A DNA stretch of 64,000 nt from Mortierella sp. BCC40632 (taxonomy: Eukaryota; Mortierellomycota; Mortierellomycetes; Mortierellales; Mortierellaceae). The translations under genes were made by a program, and so were the position numbers. The DNA lies in assembly GCA_011634665.1 (NCBI GenBank), contig WAEK01000027.1, forward strand, positions 124,001-188,000, read 5' to 3'. Position 1 is the first letter of the stretch; every line of letters starts with the position of its first letter. Shown piece after piece: positions 3,336 through 15,458 of this stretch. The notes under the pieces were generated by a model that was given only the letters and a program-made list of their open reading frames with translations, had not been told where the DNA came from and searched no databases.

Positions 3336-5187
3336 TCCAGGACCTGATTGCCGATGCCCCCTCCTCTTGTTCTCTGGACAAGGGGAGTGTACTAGTCCTG
3401 AGTTAAGTTGTAGTTCTTATGAATTAAATATTAAGCTCCAAACCCAAAACACTCCCCCTTCGAACATCCCTCATGCATGTAAAATATTCAAAGAATCTGA
3501 CGACAGTTATTCCGACCCCGTCACACCTACCCGCTCCACACCAAACACCCCTCCACCTAGGCCGCTTGAGGCAGGGGACCTGGACCCACCTGACCTTCTC
3601 TCGTCCCTAGAGCCCGCCGTTGCCGCGCGTGCCATCCGGTTACAATCGGCCACATCGGACGGCACAACAAATACACTCCTTACTTTCCTTGGCAAGATCA
3701 ATGGCTATTCAGCTCGTATCCTCATCGACGGAGGAGCAGAAGGAAATGTACTCAGCAACACCTTTCAGGAACGCCATTCTCTTCCCATCCACCTTTGCGC
3801 CGCCATTCCAGTTATTCTGCCGAATGGCTCTGTCTCAGTCATAAACCATGTTTCCAACATAGTTTTGTCACACAAAACTTATTCGGCCAACCTGGAACCG
3901 ATCCTTTATCCACTACAAAACTATGACCTTATTCTCGGCAAACCTTGGCTAGCCCTCGTGAACCCCATGATCAATTGGCGCACAAATGAGGTGAAGTTTA
4001 AATCCAACGGTCGCGATATTCATTGGACATGCAACGACAGACTAGACGGCCTCAAAGACAAGAGCCCCAACCATGGTAACAATCATTGCAAACGAGTCAA
4101 CGCCATCAAGTTCTGCAATATCGTCGCTCTTCCGGGTAGTGAATTATTCATTGCCAATCTACAACCGATCCATGAGTCAAGCAACACCTCCGATCTCTCC
4201 CCCGAGGTTGCAACAATCATCAAAAACGAGTTTGCTGATGTCTTTCCAACATTCCTTCCCTCGGGACTTCCACCTGATCGAGGGGACGCCATGAAGATAG
4301 AGACTGACCCAATGGCTGACCCTCCCGTTCGACCAGTCATCCGATTGTCCATTGCTGAACTAGATGAGCTCAGAAAGCAACTTGATGATCTTCTGGAGAA
4401 GGGTTTCATCAAACCTAGCACCTCTCCATTCGGTTCACCTGTACTTTTTGTTCGGAAAAAAGAGGGCACACTACGTATGTGCGTCGACTATCGAGGACTG
4501 AACCAGATCACCAAGAAGAACAGACACCCTCTGCCAAGGATCGATGAACTTATCGACCGCCTTCAAGGAGCACGATATTTTTCGAAGCTGGATCTTCTCT
4601 CAGGGTACCACCAACAGAGGATATTCGAACCACACACTCACAAGACCGCCTTCCGTTGTCGATACGGTCATTTTGAATGGAACGTGATCCCCTTCGGTCT
4701 GACCAACGCCCCTGCTTCGTTCTCTGCCATGATGCGAAATGTTCTTCACCCTGTTCTCGACAAAAGTGTCATTTCGTATCTGGATGACTTACTCATTTAC
4801 TCCAGGACCAAAGAGGAGCATCTTCAACACATTCGAGAGGTACTGACTTTGCTACGAAAAAACAAACTCTATGCAAAACTGAGCAAATGCTCATTCATGC
4901 AGAAACAAACCGAGTTCCTTGGCCACACGATCACAGAGGAGGGAATACAAATCAGTGCTGTTCACATCAAGGCAATTCAGGAGTGGCCCAGGCCTTCCAA
5001 GCAGAAAGACGTCCAGCAGTTTGTAGGGCTCGCACAATATTGTCATCAAGGTGTCAAAGACTTTGCCGAGATCGCCCTTCCCTTGACAAATCTTCTAGGA
5101 AATAGTACTCCATTCCACTGGCAGGAAGAGCATGAAAAGGCTTTTAAGAAACTCAAGAAAGCGATCACATCTGCCCCTATCCCTTAA
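3286..5187 (+). CDS. pol: Ty3 Pol, truncated after reverse transcriptase
   Basis: Protease and reverse transcriptase of the Ty3 element. The retropepsin site is present as ILIDGGAEGN (DGG rather than the usual DSG/DTG). The reverse transcriptase shows the expected blocks in order: MCVDYRGLN, FSKLDLLSGYHQ, FEWNVIPFGLTNAPASF and the catalytic SYLDDLLIYS, then the thumb/connection up to KKAITSAP. RNase H and integrase are missing: at 5178 the coding sequence meets the inverted repeat of the Fanzor transposon and a stop follows at once. The sequence beyond the other end of that transposon does not continue Pol, so Pol was already truncated or lost sequence at insertion. The element cannot move itself. 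Confidence 0.88.
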   Translation: MRTPPQSREKSPAIRISPGPDCRCPLLLFSGQGECTSPELSCSSYELNIKLQTQNTPPSNIPHACKIFKESDDSYSDPVTPTRSTPNTPPPRPLEAGDLDPPDLLSSLEPAVAARAIRLQSATSDGTTNTLLTFLGKINGYSARILIDGGAEGNVLSNTFQERHSLPIHLCAAIPVILPNGSVSVINHVSNIVLSHKTYSANLEPILYPLQNYDLILGKPWLALVNPMINWRTNEVKFKSNGRDIHWTCNDRLDGLKDKSPNHGNNHCKRVNAIKFCNIVALPGSELFIANLQPIHESSNTSDLSPEVATIIKNEFADVFPTFLPSGLPPDRGDAMKIETDPMADPPVRPVIRLSIAELDELRKQLDDLLEKGFIKPSTSPFGSPVLFVRKKEGTLRMCVDYRGLNQITKKNRHPLPRIDELIDRLQGARYFSKLDLLSGYHQQRIFEPHTHKTAFRCRYGHFEWNVIPFGLTNAPASFSAMMRNVLHPVLDKSVISYLDDLLIYSRTKEEHLQHIREVLTLLRKNKLYAKLSKCSFMQKQTEFLGHTITEEGIQISAVHIKAIQEWPRPSKQKDVQQFVGLAQYCHQGVKDFAEIALPLTNLLGNSTPFHWQEEHEKAFKKLKKAITSAPIP

Positions 5188-5220
5188 ACCGTAAGGTTTG
5201 GTAGGCAAATTTGCCGATTT
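5180..5220 (+). repeat. terminal inverted repeat, Fanzor-proximal end
   Basis: Begins TCCCTTAAACCGTAAG and continues with a 5-bp insertion relative to the other end, then TAGGCAAATTTGCC and ATTT. The insertion creates a small hairpin (AAACC-GTAA-GGTTT, 5186-5199) absent from the other end. GGCAAATTTGCC (5204-5215) is a perfect palindrome. Confidence 0.85.
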
Positions 5221-5357
5221 AAAAAAATAATAATGAGTGGTTAGATTCCATTGAGCGAGCACAAAATACAGGGTATGTTTGTTTCAAACAAGAAATACTT
5301 ACTGAAACAGGATAAATAATGTCGAGTTCCACACTCGACTTTGGCTTCCCATTGTTC
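5180..5357 (-). ncRNA. predicted omega-RNA scaffold of the Fanzor
   Basis: In TnpB/Fanzor systems the guide RNA scaffold comes from the 3' part of the nuclease gene and the element end, and the guide is the flanking DNA. The 178 bp between the Fanzor stop and the terminus contain four hairpins: GTCGAG-7 nt-CTCGAC (5321-5339), GTTTCA...TGAAAC (5281-5308), the GGCAAATTTGCC palindrome (5204-5215) and AAACC-GTAA-GGTTT (5186-5199). The RNA would read from 5357 down to 5180 and run into Ty3 pol sequence as guide. Expression and folding are not shown; this is inference from position and structure. Confidence 0.45.
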
Positions 5358-8300
5358 CTATTGACTTCGGCGCAAGAACCATGGCCACTCCATCTTCGAC
5401 AGCCAGTGGTGAACCGCCATTGCCATGTTTTGCCCACCATTCACGTCGCGGTTGCGTGCTGACTCATGCTTGGCTTCTGTGTTGGCTCCCGCTGCACTGG
5501 CTCTACTGGACTTGACGTTATGACACTCTGCCTTGCAAATTATCGATCTCTTGTTCTCCTCCGTGCTGTCGCCACAGAGACAACATCGCTGCGATGTGTT
5601 GTACTCGTCAACCAGACACACAAAAATACCCATCCCTAGTGCCTATTAGGCAGCAGTATCATATTAAAATCATAGTCTTGACAAAAAAAAAAAAAAAAAA
5701 AAAAAGATCCTTTTGTCCTACGCCTTTACTTACCATCTGGCACAGTCTCTCCAGCACGAGATACGTTCCACTCGTTCCACCATTAAATGGCTTAAACACT
5801 CCGTCTCCAATGGCAAGAATGACCTGTCGCTTGGATGGCAGACTGGGCTTTGGCAGGGGTTCTTGCATCTCCTCTGCTGTCTCCAGATTGGCGATGCTAA
5901 CAGCCGTCTGCAGAATATGTGAAAGGCGCTGGTCTATCTCTGATCGATGTCTTTGCTGCTTTTGGTACTTGAGGATCTTGTAGGACATGGATCCGTAGAA
6001 TGCTCCAAGCAACCCATCAGCACCAAGTTTCGACCGGACATGCTCCTCACTGTTCTTGGAGAGTTGTCGCAGTCGTGACTCTTCTGGAACCTTGCCAGGG
6101 TCCTCAACGGTTACTGGAACAATCGCTTGCTCTGCTGTATTGATCATCATCCGTCTCCTTGGCAAGCTGCATCAGGTGCCTGATCCACTTTGTGTGCCTG
6201 TTGTACGTTCCCCTGGACAAGTGGTGATTTGAAGCCCGGTCGGGTCGGGCGCTATCAACTATCACCGCTGTGATGAGCTCGGCAATCCCAGGGTCAACCC
6301 CAATCACCACACAGCTTTTCCCGACAAGCCTGTCAACTGTCTCCTTATTTTTGAAGAGCTCGGTGACATACGGGATAGAATTCCGACCACCGTTGAGGGG
6401 TGTGCAAAGAGATTTGCTGGCTTTTGGACATGGGGGTAGTACTGCCTGTCGCCTCTGCATCGCCTTTAGGACTCTGAACCTTTTTGGTCTTGGGATCCAG
6501 TGCGCGATAGGCAAGTAACCGGAGCTGATATCCGTCTGTTACGATTGTTCCACGCAAACAATGTTTGTGGTGTGGGTGTAGCTGCGGGTGTTCGGTATTG
6601 GCTGATTTTACATCTAGATTGCCCATCTGATGACATTTCGCTGCCTTCAGTGCAGTGATCCATTCTTTTGCCTTTCTGACAAACCGACTCTTCAGCTCTC
6701 CATAGCTCCTCTTGGCCGCAGTCCCCTCAGGTTGTTCAGTATTGCTCTTCCCTCGCCCAGGCAATTGTTTGGCTGCCTCTTCAAGCTCCTCTTCCGCTGT
6801 AGCAACCGCCAAGCCAAAAGAGTCAAACAGTCCCGGAAGCTGGGATGTCGATGGTCTCCCAACACAGGTTGTTCTGTCATAGTTGGTCTTTTTGTCTTCC
6901 TCCGACAAAGAGCCTGTAGCAGATCTCGCCTGGATGATCTGAAGCCCTCTTTGCCGCCTCAGCCTGAGTGGAGACTCCCAGCAGTTCTTTGATTATCCTT
7001 TGTTTTGCTTCGTTGACACGGTCCTGTCGAAAGATTGCGCGGACAAGATACTGCTCGGGGACTGTAAGGAAGGCTGTCGTGTCTCGAACAGCAGGGGCCA
7101 ATTTCATCCGCTCCAGAGCTGGTAGTTGGAGGTTGAGAATCGTGAAGACCTCGGCCTGGCTGTACGCTTTCGACACTCCACTTTCCTCCACTGCTGCCAA
7201 CAACGCTGCACCCTCTGTCGATTGGGCCCATGTCGGGTTTCTTTTGGCGTACCTATAAAAAGTTATCATGGTTGGGATATGTTGAAATGCTGGACAATTC
7301 AAACTCTCAACATGGAAAGGTTCATGCTACTTACTCTGCTGATCAACTCTGGGACAAACTCGACAAATGTCTTGCGCAATAATTTGTGAAGACTCTGCCC
7401 CGACCCTTCAAAGAAGCAGTGGGGTACTTGGCCCTGAAGGTGCGACTGAAATTGTTGTCGCTGCTGATCAAAATCAGTCCCGGCTCTCTCGGCAAAGTCG
7501 CTGACCACTTCCTTGGCGAGGTTCATGCCTGGTGTCCCTCGCTTTGTCTTGTCACCGCAGTAGAGGTAAATTATAAGTTGTCGACAAAAATCCTCTGTGT
7601 CTACCGTCTGTAACCTTTTTTCGATCCTCTACTTGATTGTCCCCTGCAGAATACATGTTTGAGACTGTCCTGGCAATGAACCATTGGATGACATAGAGTG
7701 CAAGTTTAGTGGCCTCTGAGTTGCACTTTGCTATCGCTAGCAGTGTGTCACCAATGTACTGTGCGGCTGCTCTGCGTTCTGTTTCTGATATAGAAGGAAG
7801 CCGTTCTTTGAGAACTGATTCTACTCGCCACTGGATTGGATCGCGCTTCTGGGTGATACAGTCAGATGTTGAGTTTAATACTTGGTCAATCAGGTTACCG
7901 GGCGATACTCTATTAGATGCTCCTGCTTCCGACTTGCTTTCTGCTCCCAGGGCCGTTTGAACAGCAAGTCTTGTAGCCTTTGCCCTCTTCAGCTTTCCGC
8001 GTCGTCGTTTTGTTAAAGGCTCCAGTGGGGTCCTTGCCTCACTTGTTTTCGATCGTTGTCAGAGAATTCGCATCTTGTTCGTTTCTGTCATTCTCATCGG
8101 TTGGCGCTTCTCGCTTTACAGCCCTAGTGAGAAAGATGGGTTAATCCTTTTTTTTTTTCCTTAACCCAAGCTGCAACCTATATTGAAACTTGCCTTTTGA
8201 GGAGCCGCTTATCGTGAACTGGCTGCTTGCTCACAGAACACTCCCGTTGTGGATTTTTAGATGTACTGGTCTCGACTCCCCGAACGAGCTGTGCGCCAAT

Positions 8301-8423
8301 TGTCAGTCTCTCGCCTTGACCAACAGCTGGCTCAGAGATCTCTTCTTCCTCTTCTTCCTTTCTCGGAAAGTTGTCAATCATTCCCATACCACGAGGCTGG
8401 GTGATTTTTGAGAGTCGGGACAT
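5358..8423 (-). CDS. Fanzor (TnpB-like RNA-guided nuclease), frames interrupted
   Basis: Eukaryotic TnpB homologue, expected to cut DNA under guidance of an omega-RNA. Landmarks in order on the minus strand: TDGYQLRLL (about 6520, a block shared by Fanzors); RuvC-I Asp in VIGVDPGIAELITAVIV (about 6300) followed by HHLSRGTYNRHT; RuvC-II-like AIGDGVFKP (about 5800); zinc-finger start VDEYNTSQRCCLC (about 5600) and RuvC-III NRDVNGGQNM (about 5420). The last intron is clear: donor GTAAGT at 5733, acceptor at 5643, joining in phase just before the DEY motif. Another donor (GTAAGT, about 7335) and a GC-AG intron near 8200-8127 are likely. The open N-terminal frame continues at 7980-7620 without a Met. 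Frame changes near 8060, 7260, 6940, 6450 and 6140 lack convincing introns, so the copy is either decaying or affected by base-calling errors. The family call is secure from the motifs; the exact exon map is not. Confidence 0.85.
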
Positions 8424-8615
8424 TTCGTTCCTTGGTCATATGTCTTGTAGCACCGCTCTCGGCCTGGATTCGCATGGCGTTTTCATTCCGCTGTTCATCA
8501 TCAGCAAACGAAACGAGAACGAAGGTCTTGACAACGCTTGCGCTGCCACTATGCCTATACAAGTTTGAAAAAAAAAAAAAAAAAAAGTTGATCATTAAAA
8601 TAATGTCCCCTGTCA

Positions 8616-9761
8616 TCAACTGGCTGCAGGCTTTGGAGAAGATTCAGTCCCTACCCTGCGCCACTGCTTTCTCTTTTTAATCCTAGTGTTGAGCTTGCGA
8701 AGCTCCTCGGGGAATTTCTTGGCTGCACTCAACAACTGGTCCGATAGGCAAAGTATCTCTGAGGGCGTCGAGGGAGGCACTAGTGGTGTCTCCTCTGCGT
8801 GGATGAAAATTTTGGTCGCATCGTCAAACTGGCTTGGATCCACTTCAAGAGCTTTGGCATACCCTGCTAACAGCGCTTGCACCGTCCTTTGACCTGCAGG
8901 CAATCGATCCCATAGTCCAACAAGAATTTTCTGGTTCTTGTTGATGCCATACCCCTTGACATTTTCGCAATAGTCGTTCCCCGAGGTGATCGCCACTGCT
9001 TGCCATACCACAAAGTCCGGAACCCTCAGTTGTCCCAGGGCCTCGTCGTTGATCGTGTACAGCCAGAATGTGGACTTGATAGCGCGGTCTTGACTGATCA
9101 AATGAATGTTGGGGGTAAAGAGCATATCGCTATCGACTGTCGCTACATAGATCCGTTGTCTAGACCCCAATGCTTCGCGCCTAATGCAGTTATCGGTCTC
9201 GCCAGAGCAAACATGAGCGCGGTGGCCAAGAGCCACGAGGTCATTGGCAACCTTGACCCGCATGCCCATATCGATCCGTATTGAACACTTCCAGGAAGCC
9301 ATCATGTTCACAAATGCCCGGAGTAGGCGTCGGCGCAAGTTGCGTGCTGAGCGATCCCCACCATCAGGATACTCCTGGTTTGGTTGAATTGCTGCGTTGA
9401 ATGCGGACAGAGAGCTGGAACATTGCTCAGGACTATCCACTTCATTTTGCGATCGATGTTTCCTGGCGACGACCTTTTCAGCGATAGGGAGTCCGTCGAT
9501 GTGGATAATCGCGTCATTGGAAAAGCTGAGTTTGAGTTTCTTGCTTATTGCTTTGGCGATCCAGTCGGGCTCTTCGTCTGGCTCCTTGCCCCTGGAAGCC
9601 AGGCACAGCAATTTCTTCTGGAACCAAAAAAGAATGGCAAGGAGATAGGATAAATAGAGTGCAAAGAGGTCGACGTGGACAGAAGGAAGCTCTTTCGGAT
9701 CTACTGCAGACCGTAGGATACCAGCTTTTGCAATAGTCTTCCAAGCTTGTTTGACTGTCAT
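8616..9761 (-). CDS. FEN1/XPG-like (PIN-fold) nuclease
   Basis: Putative structure-specific 5' nuclease of 381 residues from the ATG at 9761. The frame stays open upstream, but MTVKQAWKTIAKAGIL fits the M-x-V-x-x-(L/W)W N-terminus of the family, and an AG acceptor (ACTAG) lies just before. Features in order: VHVDLFALYLSYL (first acidic site, about residue 30), IIHIDGLPIAEKV (second, about 90), VATVDSDMLF (XPG-I-like DxD, about 210), and ITSGNDYCENVKGYGINKN (helix-hairpin-like GNDY..GIG region, about 255), then a basic C-terminus. The gene lies 190 bp upstream of the Fanzor start region, same strand, inside the same inverted repeats. It may process flaps or ends made during transposition or after Fanzor cutting; that role is inference. 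Unlike Fanzor its frame is intact. Confidence 0.7.
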   Translation of the reverse strand: MTVKQAWKTIAKAGILRSAVDPKELPSVHVDLFALYLSYLLAILFWFQKKLLCLASRGKEPDEEPDWIAKAISKKLKLSFSNDAIIHIDGLPIAEKVVARKHRSQNEVDSPEQCSSSLSAFNAAIQPNQEYPDGGDRSARNLRRRLLRAFVNMMASWKCSIRIDMGMRVKVANDLVALGHRAHVCSGETDNCIRREALGSRQRIYVATVDSDMLFTPNIHLISQDRAIKSTFWLYTINDEALGQLRVPDFVVWQAVAITSGNDYCENVKGYGINKNQKILVGLWDRLPAGQRTVQALLAGYAKALEVDPSQFDDATKIFIHAEETPLVPPSTPSEILCLSDQLLSAAKKFPEELRKLNTRIKKRKQWRRVGTESSPKPAAS

Positions 9762-9880
9762 GTTTTTTTTAATGGCTTTGTAGGCTAGTTGGGTGAATGT
9801 GAGAGGGGAGAAGTGCAAACAAAAAAAAAAGGAGATTTTTTGTTATTTTCAACAGCCCAAATGCTCGTGGATGTGGGAAA

Positions 9881-9990
9881 AAGGACTATTTTGGGGGGGG
9901 GGAAAGGACTATTTTGAAAAAAGGACTCTTCTGAAAAAAAAAGGACTCTTTCGAAAAAAAGGACTCTTTTGAAAAAAAAAAAAAAAAAAA
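9881..9990 (+). repeat. short tandem repeat, AAAAAGGACTCTTTTG-like unit
   Basis: Five to six units of 16-20 nt (AAAAAGGACTCTTTTG and variants) end in a run of about 25 A. It lies between the two upstream genes of the Fanzor transposon, just 5' of the FEN1-like nuclease, where its promoter should be. Confidence 0.75.
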
Positions 9991-10134
9991 AAAAAAAGAC
10001 AGGCGCTGCTAATACTTACACTGGCACAACCTTTTCAAAGTACCAAATGAGGCGTAAAACCGTTGCCAATTTGGTCCGCTCAGGCCTTCTCCTGAGGAGA
10101 GGCCCGTGCTTGATGTTCCATACTCACATGCATA

Positions 10135-10277
10135 CTGCCCCAAAACCTACTGCCCCAAAACCTACTGCCCCAAATCCTACTCTCTCTCATATCCTACTCT
10201 CTCTCAAATCCTACTCTCTCAAATCCTACTCTCTCATATCCTACTCTCATATCCTACTCTCTCATATCCCCCTCTCT

Positions 10278-10312
<35 letters not shown>
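10135..10312 (+). repeat. CTACTGCCCCAAAAC / CTACTCTCTCAAATC tandem array and T34 tract
   Basis: Three CTACTGCCCCAAAAC-type units grade into about nine CTACTCTCTCATATC-type units, then a run of over 30 T. On the minus strand this is the region 3' of the unknown gene and 5' of the nuclease gene. Confidence 0.8.
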
Positions 10313-10474
10313 GACAAATAACACGCAACACTCGAGGAGTGAGAATACATTCGTCCGGGTTTATCGACAAAAAGGAAAAAGAAAAGAGGAAATACACATG
10401 CTCTGTTTGCTATTTTTCATTGGGCCAAGTCGTTATCTTCAGAAAATGAGACAATGCGCCTACGCCTGAATGCA

Positions 10475-11320
10475 TTACCTCATGAGGGTCACGACAGCCT
10501 CGATTTGCTTGTTGCGGTGAGGGGGGATAAGAAGAAAGACTGCAGCCAAGAAAGCCAAAAGGAAGAGGTGACCTCGTGTCTTTACAGCAGCCTTTGATAA
10601 ATTGTATTTCACTACCAGGAGCAGGTACTTTTGCTGGATCGCCTCGCGGTCTGTGCATTGGTCATCGGCGTGTCTCTTTTTCCACTCAGTCTTGAACCTT
10701 GACCTCAGGTTGATCAGATGCTGGACAACTGCTTGTTGCTTGCCTTTGTTGCCACAGTGGCAATTGCAAATTGCTATGAACCGGTATTGGTCTCCCACGC
10801 TGCACCACACCAATGCGTTTGCAAAAGCCACTATCGCCTGTTCTCTCGTTTGAGAATCGTGGATGTCGATGTCGCAAAAGATTTCGTTTCCTTCTTTAAG
10901 GATGATGTTTAGGGGATTCTCGCCTTTGATAGCATCTTGAGAGCGGAGCCAATTCAGGGCGGTAGAATATTTGAGGCGTCGCTGTAAAATGGCGGTTGAT
11001 GGCTGATATGCAACAGACCTCTGGTTCTCTTCCGGGATAGGATCATCCAGGTCAATGGACAGAGTAGGAGGAGACTCTAGTATGATTGTTTTGGGATAGC
11101 TTGGAGGTGACTGAATCTGTGTTGGCTGGTGTTCTCGACGATTGTTGTTCTCCACTTCCATATTATCTTTTGCTAGCCTGGCTTTGAGCCGTCCTATCGC
11201 ACTGGCCACGGATGATGAGCAGGACCAAGACTTGGCTGCTTGACTGTCTAAGGCATAGACGGAAGGGTTGCGGGAATTGGTGGGGAATGGCATCATTCTC
11301 GCTCTGGCTCCGGTGTTCAT
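10475..11320 (-). CDS. unrecognised protein of the Fanzor transposon
   Basis: A 281-residue frame from the ATG at 11320. I do not recognise the family. The first ~110 residues are polar and disordered (RREHQPTQIQSPPSYPKT). The C-terminal 170 are more ordered: STALNWLRSQDAIKG, then FCDIDIHDSQTREQAIVAFANAL, a Cys/His cluster CNCHCGNKGKQQ, a basic KTEWKKRHADD helix, and near the end a hydrophobic stretch LFLLAFLAAVFLLIPP that may be a membrane segment. Coding-like sequence with His/Pro (SHCLRHPPVEDIDHG) continues in frame upstream to about 11390, so the true start or an upstream exon is probably further out. It sits first of the three same-strand genes; a transposase role cannot be excluded but no catalytic triad is visible. 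Confidence 0.5.
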   Translation of the reverse strand: MNTGARARMMPFPTNSRNPSVYALDSQAAKSWSCSSSVASAIGRLKARLAKDNMEVENNNRREHQPTQIQSPPSYPKTIILESPPTLSIDLDDPIPEENQRSVAYQPSTAILQRRLKYSTALNWLRSQDAIKGENPLNIILKEGNEIFCDIDIHDSQTREQAIVAFANALVWCSVGDQYRFIAICNCHCGNKGKQQAVVQHLINLRSRFKTEWKKRHADDQCTDREAIQQKYLLLVVKYNLSKAAVKTRGHLFLLAFLAAVFLLIPPHRNKQIEAVVTLMR

Positions 11321-11399
11321 GCCATGGTCAATATCTTCGACAGGGGGGTGCCGTAAACAATGAGATCCTGTGGTTGTTCCTGAGTCAAGGAGTCTTCAG

Positions 11400-12239
11400 T
11401 CACATTGATCTTGTTGTCAGTGTCAAGAATGCTGCTGTCAAAGACCATTTTCATCAGTATCGGCTGGAAAGGGTAGCCATTATCTCTTTCTGCGGGGGGT
11501 GGGAGGGTTTTAATTTTTTTTTCTGGCCGGACCGCACGGACCTTCTATTGATAGACACAGTGGATGGTGCCAAGGCCATGAATCAGATCCCCAGCAGAAG
11601 TGAAACATGTATATGGGCTCCTTAAGTTGGTTCTGAGAACTGGATTAGAGGTGTTTGAGAGGGGACCCGACTACTCGGGGGGAGAGGAACCCCTCTCGGG
11701 TCTGCGATGCCTTTTGGGATGTGCAGAAAAAAAAAAAAAAAAAAGCTTATTCCATATGGAGTAAGGATGCGATTATGATTTTGTGAATCTCTGGTCTTCA
11801 ACACTTAGAAGGAACAGAGAGTGTACAAGAGCCTCTCTGGCAATGATTTCAAACACAGGAACAAAAAGGCGCGTTTGAAAGCAGCACTCCTATTGAAGGT
11901 ACAAACAATCTTGATCGCAATGAACAGACTGCCCACATGGCAGCAAGATAGAGACCGAGCTTTCCCCCAAGTAGTGTAAAACATACTCCAAGCCATGTCG
12001 CGCTTAACTGAAACTAAACCTGTCATCATCGAGGGCTACCTGGACTTGAGATAAGAGGAGCACGTTTAACCATACGGGGGATCAATCCAGCAGCTCAAGT
12101 TGAAGTGGATCGGGCTTGTGTCCATTCCTTGCTTCGGTGCGTAGTTTGAATTGCTAGTTTCTGACCTTAGAGATTGGGGGGATGTCTCATAAAAAACTTT
12201 TGAGAAAACTGCTGAAAACCATCAAAATGTTAAAGTTAA
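11400..12239. other. transposon interior without recognised gene
   Basis: Between the unknown gene and the distal inverted repeat I see only short frames. A poly(A) run (11726-11743) and a G-rich patch near 11670-11700 are present. This is where a promoter for the minus-strand gene set would lie. Confidence 0.4.
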
Positions 12240-12272
12240 ATGGCATTTTTGCCTAGCTTACGGTTTAAGGGA
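12240..12272 (-). repeat. terminal inverted repeat, distal end
   Basis: The reverse complement of 12272-12240 starts TCCCTTAAACCGTAAG, then CTAGGCAAAAATGCC and ATTT. It pairs with 5180-5220 with a perfect 16-bp outer block and one 5-bp gap. TA follows at 12273-12274. Confidence 0.85.
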
Positions 12273-12292
12273 TACAAGAACACGTGCCAAAC

Positions 12293-12552: not shown

Positions 12553-15458
12553 TTACTTTGAAGTGCAGACAAATCGGATTAGGTTCTTCAGTGTCACCAT
12601 GTCATCCTTGTTTGCTTCAATCCCCCCGTAGAAAAAGCTGTCCATGTTGTCCAGACGAATGTACACCATCACATCTTCTCCCAAGACATGCGTAACTGGA
12701 ACTATGCTTTGGACTCCAGGGAGCACAAGATGAATGCGGAGTGTGCCCTTGATGCTGGAAGGGATGCCGGAACCCTCGTAGTCTGTGCGAACTTTTATCA
12801 AGTTCTTGTTGGTGTCGCCGACCACGCTCAAGAAACAGGCCCGAACATCGCTGGAGGATGTGTTGGACTTGTGAAAACCTTGAGCCATGGGACTACTGAA
12901 GAACTTGATCGCAAGTGACCCTGCGTACTGCCTGTTTGGGAAGAACCAAAGCCCATCAGGTCGCGTACCATTACTAGGACTCAGTAATGTGTTTGAAGGA
13001 CCGTTGATGACAAAGTCAAGGTCTGCAGCAGCTCCATCGCCTCGGCACCCGAATCCTTTTGCTGTGTTGATATCGTCAATTTGAAGCCGAAGACCATGAC
13101 ACCATGAAGGCAGCTCGGATTTATCAAGGTCCTTTAGAAAAGGAAGATCACTGATAAGGTACCCATTAAAACGTTGAAGTGACCGATGGACAATTGGCTC
13201 AAGTGCATTGCCTTTTGTTGCTGAGGTTCTGCCAAGGCTGTTAATGAGTTGGGTCAACTGATCCATGTACCCTGAGAACATGGGATCCATGGACGACGCC
13301 TTTAGCTCTTTCTCCACAGCCTCGATCACTATTGGCTCGTCCATGATCAGGTGAGCGCCATCAGAATGCGCTCGCAATCTGCACAAGGCGTTGTCCACAA
13401 AGTCTGCTTGCTTGCTACTTGAGAACAAGATTTTGCCATCTTGGAAATGATAGGCCAGGACCATCCGACAGAAAAGCCGAGCAGCTTCACCTGTAGAATC
13501 GCTTTGAAGAATAGCATGAACTCCACTCCTAAGACCACGCGTCACATGCTCAATTGTGAGGTCGACGGCGTTGTCTAGCGTGACCTGCTTGGTTTTCTGG
13601 GTAGGGCCAGTTGTGATGAGGTGGTTGACGATGCCAACGGAAAATCGCGCCCGTCCTGAAAGCTTGCGACGCTTGGCAATCGGAATTTCGCAGCCGGCGA
13701 GGTCGACCACCTCCGAGAGCATCTTGTTGACCTCCTCCTGATCAAAAACTGGAAAGTCTGTTATCCTGATAAAGTTGGTGGGCTTGCCTACAGCAGTGTA
13801 AACGTGGTCAGCATCCTGTAGCGAGAGCGCTGTGCCAAGGATCACCAGTGTGGCTTGTATGCGGCTCAGTGTGGCCGACAAAGGCGTAAGGAAGCCGCGG
13901 CGAAGATGACGATGAATCTCATTCTTGTCATCAAAGAGGACGCTTGGCAAGTTCCGAGTATTCCAGTATGAAGCCAAAGCGGATGGTGAGATAAACCGGC
14001 CGGCGAGGATACTAGTCGCCGCAGCTTGAGCTTCATCCAGAGCAATCGCCAGTCCAAGGCGCCTAGCGTCAAGATGTTCATGGAGCTTTGTTTGGACAAC
14101 ACCAAGCATGATGCCGATTGTTTGGACATCATACTCACGCAGCTTGTGAATCAGATTGTTAATAGTCAAGGCTCCTCCATTGGTTGTTTGCTCGCGAAAA
14201 AAATTGCCACTGGCTCAAGCTCTGGGCTGTGACTGAGGAGAAGGTGAAGGAAAAGTAGACGAGCCAGAAATTCGAGTTCAACACGGTGGCGTGCAAGTCT
14301 GTTCGCCTCAGCCTCGGTATCAAGCAGATTTCCTGCCCCGCCTTGTGTCCGGACAATACTCGCATACATCTCCTCGACGTCAATAGCAAGCTGGGCGAAG
14401 TTTGAGTCCTCGAACTCTGGAGAGATGGTGGGCCTGGTAGAACGACATACGCAGTAGACAACAAAGTGTTTGGTGGCCAGATCAAGGACGGTAGCCGTCT
14501 TTCCTGAGCCAGACGGTGCCACCATGGCGACCACACGGTGGCCACTGGATTTACCGATGTCATCCTCGACAATGGAACACAAAGTCGCCTTGCCGTCACT
14601 CGTTTTTGCCTGCTTGCCTAATTCAAGTCCCAGCATCGCCAGTTTGATATCTTTTGCTGTGGTGTGATATGGTAGAGTCCTCTTGAAAAAAGGGCCCAAG
14701 TCGTTCCTTCTGGAAATTCTCGACTTCCTCTGGGTTAACAGTTTGATGGGCAAAAATGATGCTGAGTGCCGCTGAGGAGGATGATCGCCAGTTCTTGTTC
14801 ATCGCGATCCTGTGGAACAGAGACACGCTGAATTGGAGTAGCTAAACCAATGAAAGAGCATTTAAAAATGGATGAGCATTAGGGAAAAAAAAAAGAACTC
14901 AATGTGAACTCATAAGACATATTGTTCGGACTCACTTGGGCGAGATGCATGGAAGCCAGGAACTGGAGTCAATGAGCGAGAAGGGACAGGTGCATGGACT
15001 ATGAGGATAATGGAGAGAAAAGAGAAAAATGAACAAAGTTTAGCAGAGGAATAAGCTCATACAAGTGGAGAACCACAATCAACAAACTGTATCTCATTAC
15101 CTGTGAGAGGAGGGCGCTGGACGATGATGTGAATCACCTTTTCTTGTGGGGTGTTGCTAAAAACCTCAGAGACTTTGTTTGCTACGGCCTTGAGTCTCTT
15201 CTTGTCGCCCTTGGATATTTTGTCAAGAAAGATTGGCTGGTCCACCTCGTTGTCATCATCATTGTCGTCATCAGCAATCGGGATGGAGACGCGCCAGAGG
15301 GCAAGTTGGTCGGCATCCACATCACTGAAAGCATTGGCCTTCTTAGCCTTGATGAGGTCTTTGAGTTCTCCTAATGTCGTTGTACTCGATGCTGAGACAG
15401 GGAACGCGGTACTCTCTCCATCAACAAGGCAGAACAGGGTCAAGGTGCTGGAAGTCAT
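12553..15458 (-). pseudogene. Crinkler (CRN) protein: ubiquitin-like header plus P-loop NTPase, frames broken
   Basis: CRN-family effector-like gene. Header exon: ATG at 15458, starting MTSSTLTLFCLVDGES, the CRN N-terminal ubiquitin-like domain, with LALWRVSIP and an IHIIVQ strand near its end. A linker exon at about 14999-14935 carries the VPSRSLTPVPGFHAS block; introns with GTGAGT/TTTAG borders flank it. The NTPase follows: Walker A APSGSGKT (about 14510), Walker B LAIALDEAQ (about 14040), and a long C-terminal region to 12553. From family knowledge such C-termini often hold a nuclease-like domain, but I cannot point to catalytic residues. Frame changes occur near 14760, 14700 (in T6) and 14208 (in T7), so this copy is a pseudogene or carries homopolymer errors. 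Confidence 0.8.

Follow-up and report, generated by a model that had tools for sequence, protein, structure and literature searches.

A 7.1-kb mobile element occupies positions 5180-12272 of the stretch of DNA analysed here, a 64,000-nucleotide piece of the Mortierella sp. BCC40632 genome (assembly GCA_011634665.1, contig WAEK01000027.1, positions 124,001 to 188,000; hereafter the window), and carries three genes, all on the minus strand, for a Fanzor, a FEN1/XPG-type nuclease (the XPG-type protein) and a third protein. A preliminary description of the window had noticed the two nucleases side by side, an observation that is right and understated: XPG-Fanzor modules of this kind recur in the genome, and the element holds one of them. 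Taking the evidence together, the element is probably a transposase-less derivative of a piggyBac-type transposon that is moved in trans and carries a conserved XPG-Fanzor module, putatively for guided cutting and 5' processing. With less assurance, we lean towards the further view that the Fanzor here would be half of a two-nuclease machine, and that this module has moved between piggyBac-type transposons and transposons with TA-CAGT ends with its order and spacing kept.

The evidence for a module comes from a search of a single genome (49.9 Mb in 62 contigs, called C1, C2 and so on, with the window on C27), using as queries the XPG-type proteins of the window and of loci L025 and L044 and the Fanzor proteins of L018, L025 and L011. 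After repeat rows were dropped and nearby matches merged, 59 XPG and 81 Fanzor loci were obtained. A Fanzor lies downstream on the same strand within 4.5 kb at 41 of the 59 XPG loci, about 0.22 being expected under uniform placement, and 1281-1943 bp separate the two genes in 39 of these pairs; the other two are decayed loci. A same-strand Fanzor upstream was found at six XPG loci, and a nearby Fanzor on the opposite strand at one. Twenty of the pairs are accounted for by the window family (6), the sister elements of about 5 kb described below (7), a group on C25 (3) and family C (4); the remaining 21 include two that are segmental duplicates of one another and a relic at C6:644455 close to the window family. 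The pairing spans protein families about 17-32% identical and two terminus types, and in families E and F the XPG-Fanzor arrangement was likewise read directly from the sequence. It also appears to exist in a second species, Mortierella alpina, because the gene model KVV02_003033, perhaps fused by gene prediction, joins an XPG match (residues 67-138, E value 3.7e-7) to a Fanzor match (residues 598-772, E value 3e-13).

Between copies, both the XPG and the Fanzor genes are under purifying selection, to judge from the ratio of nonsynonymous to synonymous change (dN/dS). For the XPG gene this ratio is 0.17 between the window and a sister, 0.25 and 0.27 between sisters and 0.28 in family E; for the Fanzor it is 0.13 between sisters and 0.17 in family E. 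A near-identical pair of family C XPG genes gave 0.47, from few changes; no ratio is given for family C against the sisters, because synonymous change is saturated in that comparison. A title and abstract search, which was not exhaustive, found no literature report of a pairing between an XPG/FEN1-type nuclease and a Fanzor.

The best surviving rival holds that the two genes were captured together once and have travelled side by side since as linked passengers, without acting jointly. Constant order and similar spacing are what common descent would give, and each gene also occurs unpaired (XPG at 18 of 59 loci, Fanzor at 40 of 81); some of these are fragments, and some may have partners too divergent for the queries. 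However, this account is unlikely, given that pairing persists across such divergent families, one of them with different ends, and that purifying selection acts on both genes. We strongly infer a functional XPG-Fanzor partnership from the sequence record, and the division of labour envisaged in the preliminary description, in which one enzyme would make guided cuts and the other process the ends, becomes more plausible through the genome-wide pairing.

The features of the element are as follows.

5180..5195, plus strand: left terminal inverted repeat TCCCTTAAACCGTAAG, with a TA flank at 5178-5179; the element proper probably runs from CCC, at 5181.
5321..5339, minus strand: short hairpin (GTCGAGT...ACTCGAC) just past the Fanzor stop, conserved in sister elements.
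5361..8435, minus strand: Fanzor gene, broken, in 8 pieces in changing frames.
8181-8435, 7555-8058, 7302-7628, 6880-7326, 6348-6992, 6107-6538, 5662-6171 and 5361-5642, minus strand: the Fanzor pieces.
8616..9761, minus strand: FEN1/XPG-type nuclease gene, open, 381 codons from the ATG at 9761, its fold predicted from the L018 model.
10173..11722, minus strand: extent of the third-gene module in common with a C30 locus (87.3% over 1291 bp, 82.9% over 111 bp and 78.1% over 73 bp).
10475..11320, minus strand: third open reading frame (ORF), a dispersed passenger gene, open, 281 codons from ATG.
12146..12272, minus strand: XPG-side end resembling the 5' end of a piggyBac-type element on C8 (88.6% over 35 bp and 73.3% over 60 bp).
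12257..12272, minus strand: right terminal inverted repeat, perfect, with a TA flank at 12273-12274.

The XPG-type gene lies in an ORF at 8616-9818 that is open and contains the HVDL, DSDMLF and GNDY motifs on which the preliminary description had based its FEN1/XPG assignment. Seven invariant acidic columns (D32, D88, E187, D189, D209, D211 and D262) are present in all five sequences of an alignment (A1) of two Fanzor-linked lineages (A/B and C) and an unlinked relative, L028, and we take these columns, those of the window protein included, to correspond to the FEN1 active site. A model of the sister protein L018, which is 65% identical to the window XPG-type protein, has a FEN1-like fold; its best structural matches are the DNA nucleases FEN1, EXO1 and XPG, at about 12-20% identity in the structural alignments. 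An N-terminal MG start is found in the sister and in other XPG-type families. A protein database search gave no match for the window XPG protein, and a search for viral relatives gave 31 and 18 pattern matches, none of which was confirmed. No Fanzor match adjoins the relative L028 (C27:227190). That the XPG-type protein might instead be a PIN-fold RNA nuclease, trimming the Fanzor guide RNA or removing an R-loop, is a still less probable account than linked passengers, since the best matches are DNA nucleases.

The Fanzor landmarks GVDPG, DEYNTSQRCCLC and NRDVNGGQNM are present in the window pieces on the minus strand. The D-P-G motif of RuvC1 reads VDPG in the window, sister and C families and LDPG in family E; in families D and F (L011, L042 and L046) DLG replaces DPG and an alternative glutamate is kept. 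According to the available text of PMC10711439, this alternative glutamate of Fanzors stands six residues before the zinc-finger CxxC, which is followed by the last catalytic aspartate. The corresponding end, E-x6-CxxC...RD, a relaxed pattern in which the second CxxC is not required, lies at window positions 5433-5606 and was matched 26 more times in the fetched loci, which overlap in part. An OrfB-type zinc ribbon (PF07282) was recognised in a sister element (E value 9.9e-9; 35.7 bits, cut-off 26.3) and in family E (E value 6.1e-11). The model of the family E Fanzor is too poor for use (predicted local distance difference test score 42.7), its best match being Cas005 at an E value of 5e-3, and a profile match to SpuFz1 (8gkh) has an E value of 2. 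The protein database gave no match for the sister Fanzor exon and two for that of family E. One Fanzor of the genome is 75% identical, over 91% of the queried part, to a Lunasporangiospora selenospora protein (Mortierellaceae), which fits a host most likely close to that family. The hairpin past the Fanzor stop shows one paired change, with T-A in window-family copies and C-G or T-G in the sister elements, and is at best weakly suggestive of a guide-RNA segment.

The perfect 16-bp inverted ends and their TA flanks, already noted in the preliminary description, are borne out by the genome, although the span of 5178..12274 given there took in the two TAs that adjoin the element. Within the window, TCCCTTAAACCGTAAG at up to three mismatches has two matches, both of them the element ends (0.47 expected), and at least two such matches occurred in 7 of 100 shuffles of the window. 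Genome-wide, there are 22 exact matches and none for a reversed control pattern. Both ends stand about 7.1 kb apart in five copies, those of the window (C27), C1, C3, C7 and C15. In the last four, long stretches have 97-99% identity to the window, and a single C15 stretch has 95.7%; a sixth copy of the window family, on C11, has its right end absent from the fetched DNA. Because flanks are shared among copies (both flanks by C1 and C7, the left flank by C3 and C11, and the right flank, at 98.8% over 1.2 kb, by the window and C15), the six copies are not six independent insertions. Since the window and C15 right flanks match and their left flanks differ, one of these two copies is probably a recombinant. 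To its left, the window copy adjoins a retrotransposon pol gene (RVT_1, E value 5.6e-36); on the other side, adjoining the element, a 538-codon ORF at 12553-14169 has no Pfam match.

The window and 16 fetched regions account for all 22 exact 16-mers, and comparison to the window element served to group them. Seven loci hold sister elements about 72-78% identical to it over longer pieces, four of them with both ends (on C5, C9, C10 and C17; 4610-5059 bp) and three with a single intact end. The sisters match the window element at the XPG and Fanzor regions and at the ends. The ORFs of two sisters, L018 and L022, were read: each has an open XPG gene, and their open Fanzor frames measure 268, 507 and 81 codons (L018) and 271, 507 and 81 codons (L022). 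At L020 and L021 (C12 and C17), 84-bp elements consist of the two ends and nothing else, and in the remaining two places with exact ends the match to the window element covers merely 343 bp (L016) and 49 bp (L024).

When one mismatch is allowed, window-type ends occur at 40 places, compared with 2 for the control; five of these are single one-mismatch ends, on C2, C4, C19 and, twice, C22. On C18, two such ends separated by 2.06 kb bracket a transposase of piggyBac type (PF13843, E values 4.4e-37 and 3.9e-15). A genome search with the C-terminal half of this protein brought the number of such transposase loci to five, of which those on C18, C8 and C1 have window-type ends. The 5' end of sister L018 matches the C8 element at 72.6% over 219 bp (E value 1.8e-31), in addition to a terminal repeat at 90.9% over 33 bp, and the similarity extends beyond the transposase start codon. 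Sister L022 matches the same element at 74.3% over 179 bp; the match of the window element is limited to the 35 and 60 bp listed above. Within the window element no transposase had been seen, and none appeared here: PF13843 had no match in the window ORFs scanned, and no such ORF is present in the window and two sister elements read. Because elements with matching ends encode a transposase and two sisters share end sequence with one of them, the likeliest view of the window element and its sisters is that they derive from piggyBac-type transposons, lack a transposase and are moved in trans, and the simplest reading is that the nuclease pair replaced the transposase in a piggyBac-type element.

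The target site could be reconstructed once. The C7 and C1 copies, which are one segmental duplication, interrupt a family D Fanzor gene, and joining the C7 flanks gives a continuous 503-codon frame when both TAs are kept, which is lost if one TA is removed. The residues restored at this empty site, RFYN, correspond to RFYN, RFYN and QFYN in three paralogues, with equal codon spacing. Because the joined frame keeps both TAs, the empty site implies a TATA target in which AT is duplicated, with the element running from CCC to GGG. A target duplication of TA was rejected on this reconstructed site, where the preliminary description had expected a TA-flanked empty site. Other sites read have the flank pattern T-AT-CCC...GGG-AT-A, except that the C8 transposase element has CA on its left. 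No clean empty site came from other joined flanks: L012 falls within a repeat with paralogues that diverge at the junction, and the lengths of spanning ORFs at the other sites are indecisive. The interrupted family D Fanzor itself (L011, L009) has an XPG-type match upstream (C7:2785121, C1:548654).

Trans-mobilisation by a TA-targeting transposase, as first proposed, thus keeps its first part, and the helper is likely to be of piggyBac type. A Tc1/mariner-type mover would fit the TA that window-family and sister copies touch on every side read, and the unrelated family C has TA-CAGT ends, which we take to resemble Tc1/mariner ends. TA target duplication is described as a hallmark of Tc1/mariner elements in the available text of PMC3627910. 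However, the transposase that elements with window-type ends encode is of piggyBac type, and the single reconstructable empty site is TATA and not one TA; a Tc1/mariner mover is accordingly improbable, and the movement of the element is best explained by a piggyBac-type helper.

Family C carries an XPG gene of 467 codons followed by a Fanzor, and four copies of about 4.7 kb have both ends, TA-CAGTCCGGCGTCAAAAG. A search with this end gave 112 matches at up to two mismatches, compared with 42 for the reversed control, and no further two-ended element that might hold a cognate transposase was found among the matches listed. The left end of the C25 relatives is absent from the first 1500 bases of L026, and no terminal repeats of family E were found in the fetched DNA. 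A 14.4-kb stretch lies between family C ends at C6:1119921-1134322, of which 3.2 kb were read as retrotransposon and piggyBac-type sequence, probably representing nested insertions. At C4:2280702-2281203, fragments of a family E-like XPG gene abut the right end of a family C element. Pairs of AACAGTAAGGGGTCAGAAG, with both members on one strand and about 5 kb between them, are found on several contigs, as would be expected of retrotransposon long terminal repeats.

The third gene is a recurrent passenger, by its distribution dispensable for the XPG-Fanzor pair. It has 80 genome matches, of which 77 were merged into 50 loci, three rows inside already listed loci being excluded. At 35 of these loci no XPG or Fanzor match lies within 5 kb, and the C30 locus that shares the module has neither. 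The other 15 (1.2 expected) comprise five of the window family, three C25 relatives and seven others, among them C6:2145225 and C10:1037054, near other Fanzors and in opposite orientation. The roughly 2.4 kb of the window element that holds this gene has no DNA match in the sisters of about 5 kb, so that two-ended copies do not always carry all three genes: the third gene does occur in separate places, and the XPG and Fanzor genes are neighbours at 41 of 59 XPG loci. The suggestion that the third protein is a new transposase was rejected on this distribution, and the wider idea that either it or the XPG-type nuclease is a new transposase or recombinase, prompted by the lack of a recognisable DDE transposase within the element and by the XPG-type gene upstream of 41 of 81 Fanzor loci, is very hard to sustain against ends in common with a piggyBac-type element, a third gene unmatched in sisters and mostly found elsewhere, and an XPG model that matches repair nucleases.

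Several points weigh against a trans-moved piggyBac-type derivative with a conserved nuclease module, in addition to the unpaired loci given above. The 41 pairs do not represent 41 independent events, since many of them are copies of other pairs. Pfam scores of the XPG-type proteins fall below the curated cut-offs (XPG_I 23.0 for L046 and 17.1 for L044, cut-off 24.9; XPG_I_2 20.1 for L025, cut-off 24.2), and there is no Pfam XPG match for the window, L018 and L028 proteins; the label XPG/FEN1-type therefore rests on fold and residues. The Fanzor of the window copy, described at first as one gene, is broken, since its frames change where sisters have continuous ORFs (268 and 507 codons). Folding of the element 3' end is unremarkable (z 0.2 to -1.5), and Rfam gave no match. 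None of the five piggyBac-type transposase loci was found fully open: C18 has one in-frame stop; C8 has a full-length domain (E value 4.4e-48) and an in-frame stop between it and the N-terminal 73 codons; C1 is broken; C6 is a broken relative whose end reads TCCCTTCG; and C5 is a weak fragment. Finally, the standard target duplication of piggyBac is TTAA and the target here is TATA, and this empty site rests on one insertion event.

In the mechanism that we propose, a piggyBac-type transposase would recognise the CCCTTAAACCGTAAG ends in trans, insert the element into TATA and duplicate AT; the window subfamily and, partly, the C25 relatives carry a passenger gene besides. The module would be what is kept: many divergent families of Fanzor, one of them with other ends, have the tandem in constant order and with constant spacing. 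As has been suggested for TnpB, the Fanzor would be directed by an RNA from the element 3' end to cut an empty or sister site; 5' ends or flaps would then be trimmed or resected by the XPG-type nuclease, and repair of the break by copying element-bearing DNA would keep or multiply the element.

This arrangement exhibits similarities to known systems, but there are also differences. In the available text of Bao and Jurka (2013, PMC3627910), the Tc/mariner element PGv-1 carries a mariner transposase, a GIY-YIG endonuclease and a Fanzor, and PUl-4 carries a Fanzor alone; as in the window, the Fanzor sits in a TA-flanked element bounded by terminal inverted repeats, and PGv-1 is the closest published precedent found for a Fanzor beside a second nuclease. 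Unlike these, the elements here have an XPG/FEN1-type second nuclease, no internal transposase, an apparent piggyBac-type helper and a pairing that recurs in many families. The abstract of that paper names Helitron, Mariner, IS4-like, Sola and MuDr as Fanzor host superfamilies, piggyBac not among them, and the available main text makes no mention of XPG (PMC3627910). The Spizellomyces punctatus element SPu-1, with SpuFz1, is likewise a fungal Fanzor in inverted repeats without a transposase, for which action in trans was suggested, and neither XPG nor FEN1 is mentioned in the main text as available (PMC10432273). The window element has ends in common with transposase-encoding members of the piggyBac superfamily (PF13843, DDE_Tnp_1_7), and differs in having no transposase, in an apparent duplication of AT in TATA and in its two-nuclease cargo. 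With the 5' nucleases FEN1, EXO1 and XPG, the XPG-type protein shares the modelled fold, the seven acidic positions and, in the sister and other families, the MG start; unlike them, it is transposon-borne and, where paired, upstream of a Fanzor. TnpB of bacterial IS605/IS607 elements, a RuvC nuclease guided by RNA, is proposed to promote copying of the element at the site it occupies (PMC10432273, available text); here there is no TnpA, the setting is eukaryotic and a nuclease gene is added.

Fanzors are associated with assorted transposases (PMC3627910 and PMC10432273, as far as available), and their role for eukaryotic transposons is stated as unknown in the accessible text of PMC10432273. 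The XPG-Fanzor module offers a testable hypothesis for that role, namely guided cutting followed by 5'-end processing that would steer repair towards copying of the element. If this is true, Fanzor would gain a natural partner enzyme in the XPG-type protein, with a bearing on the outcomes of genome editing, and an XPG neighbour would serve as a marker for finding fungal Fanzor systems.

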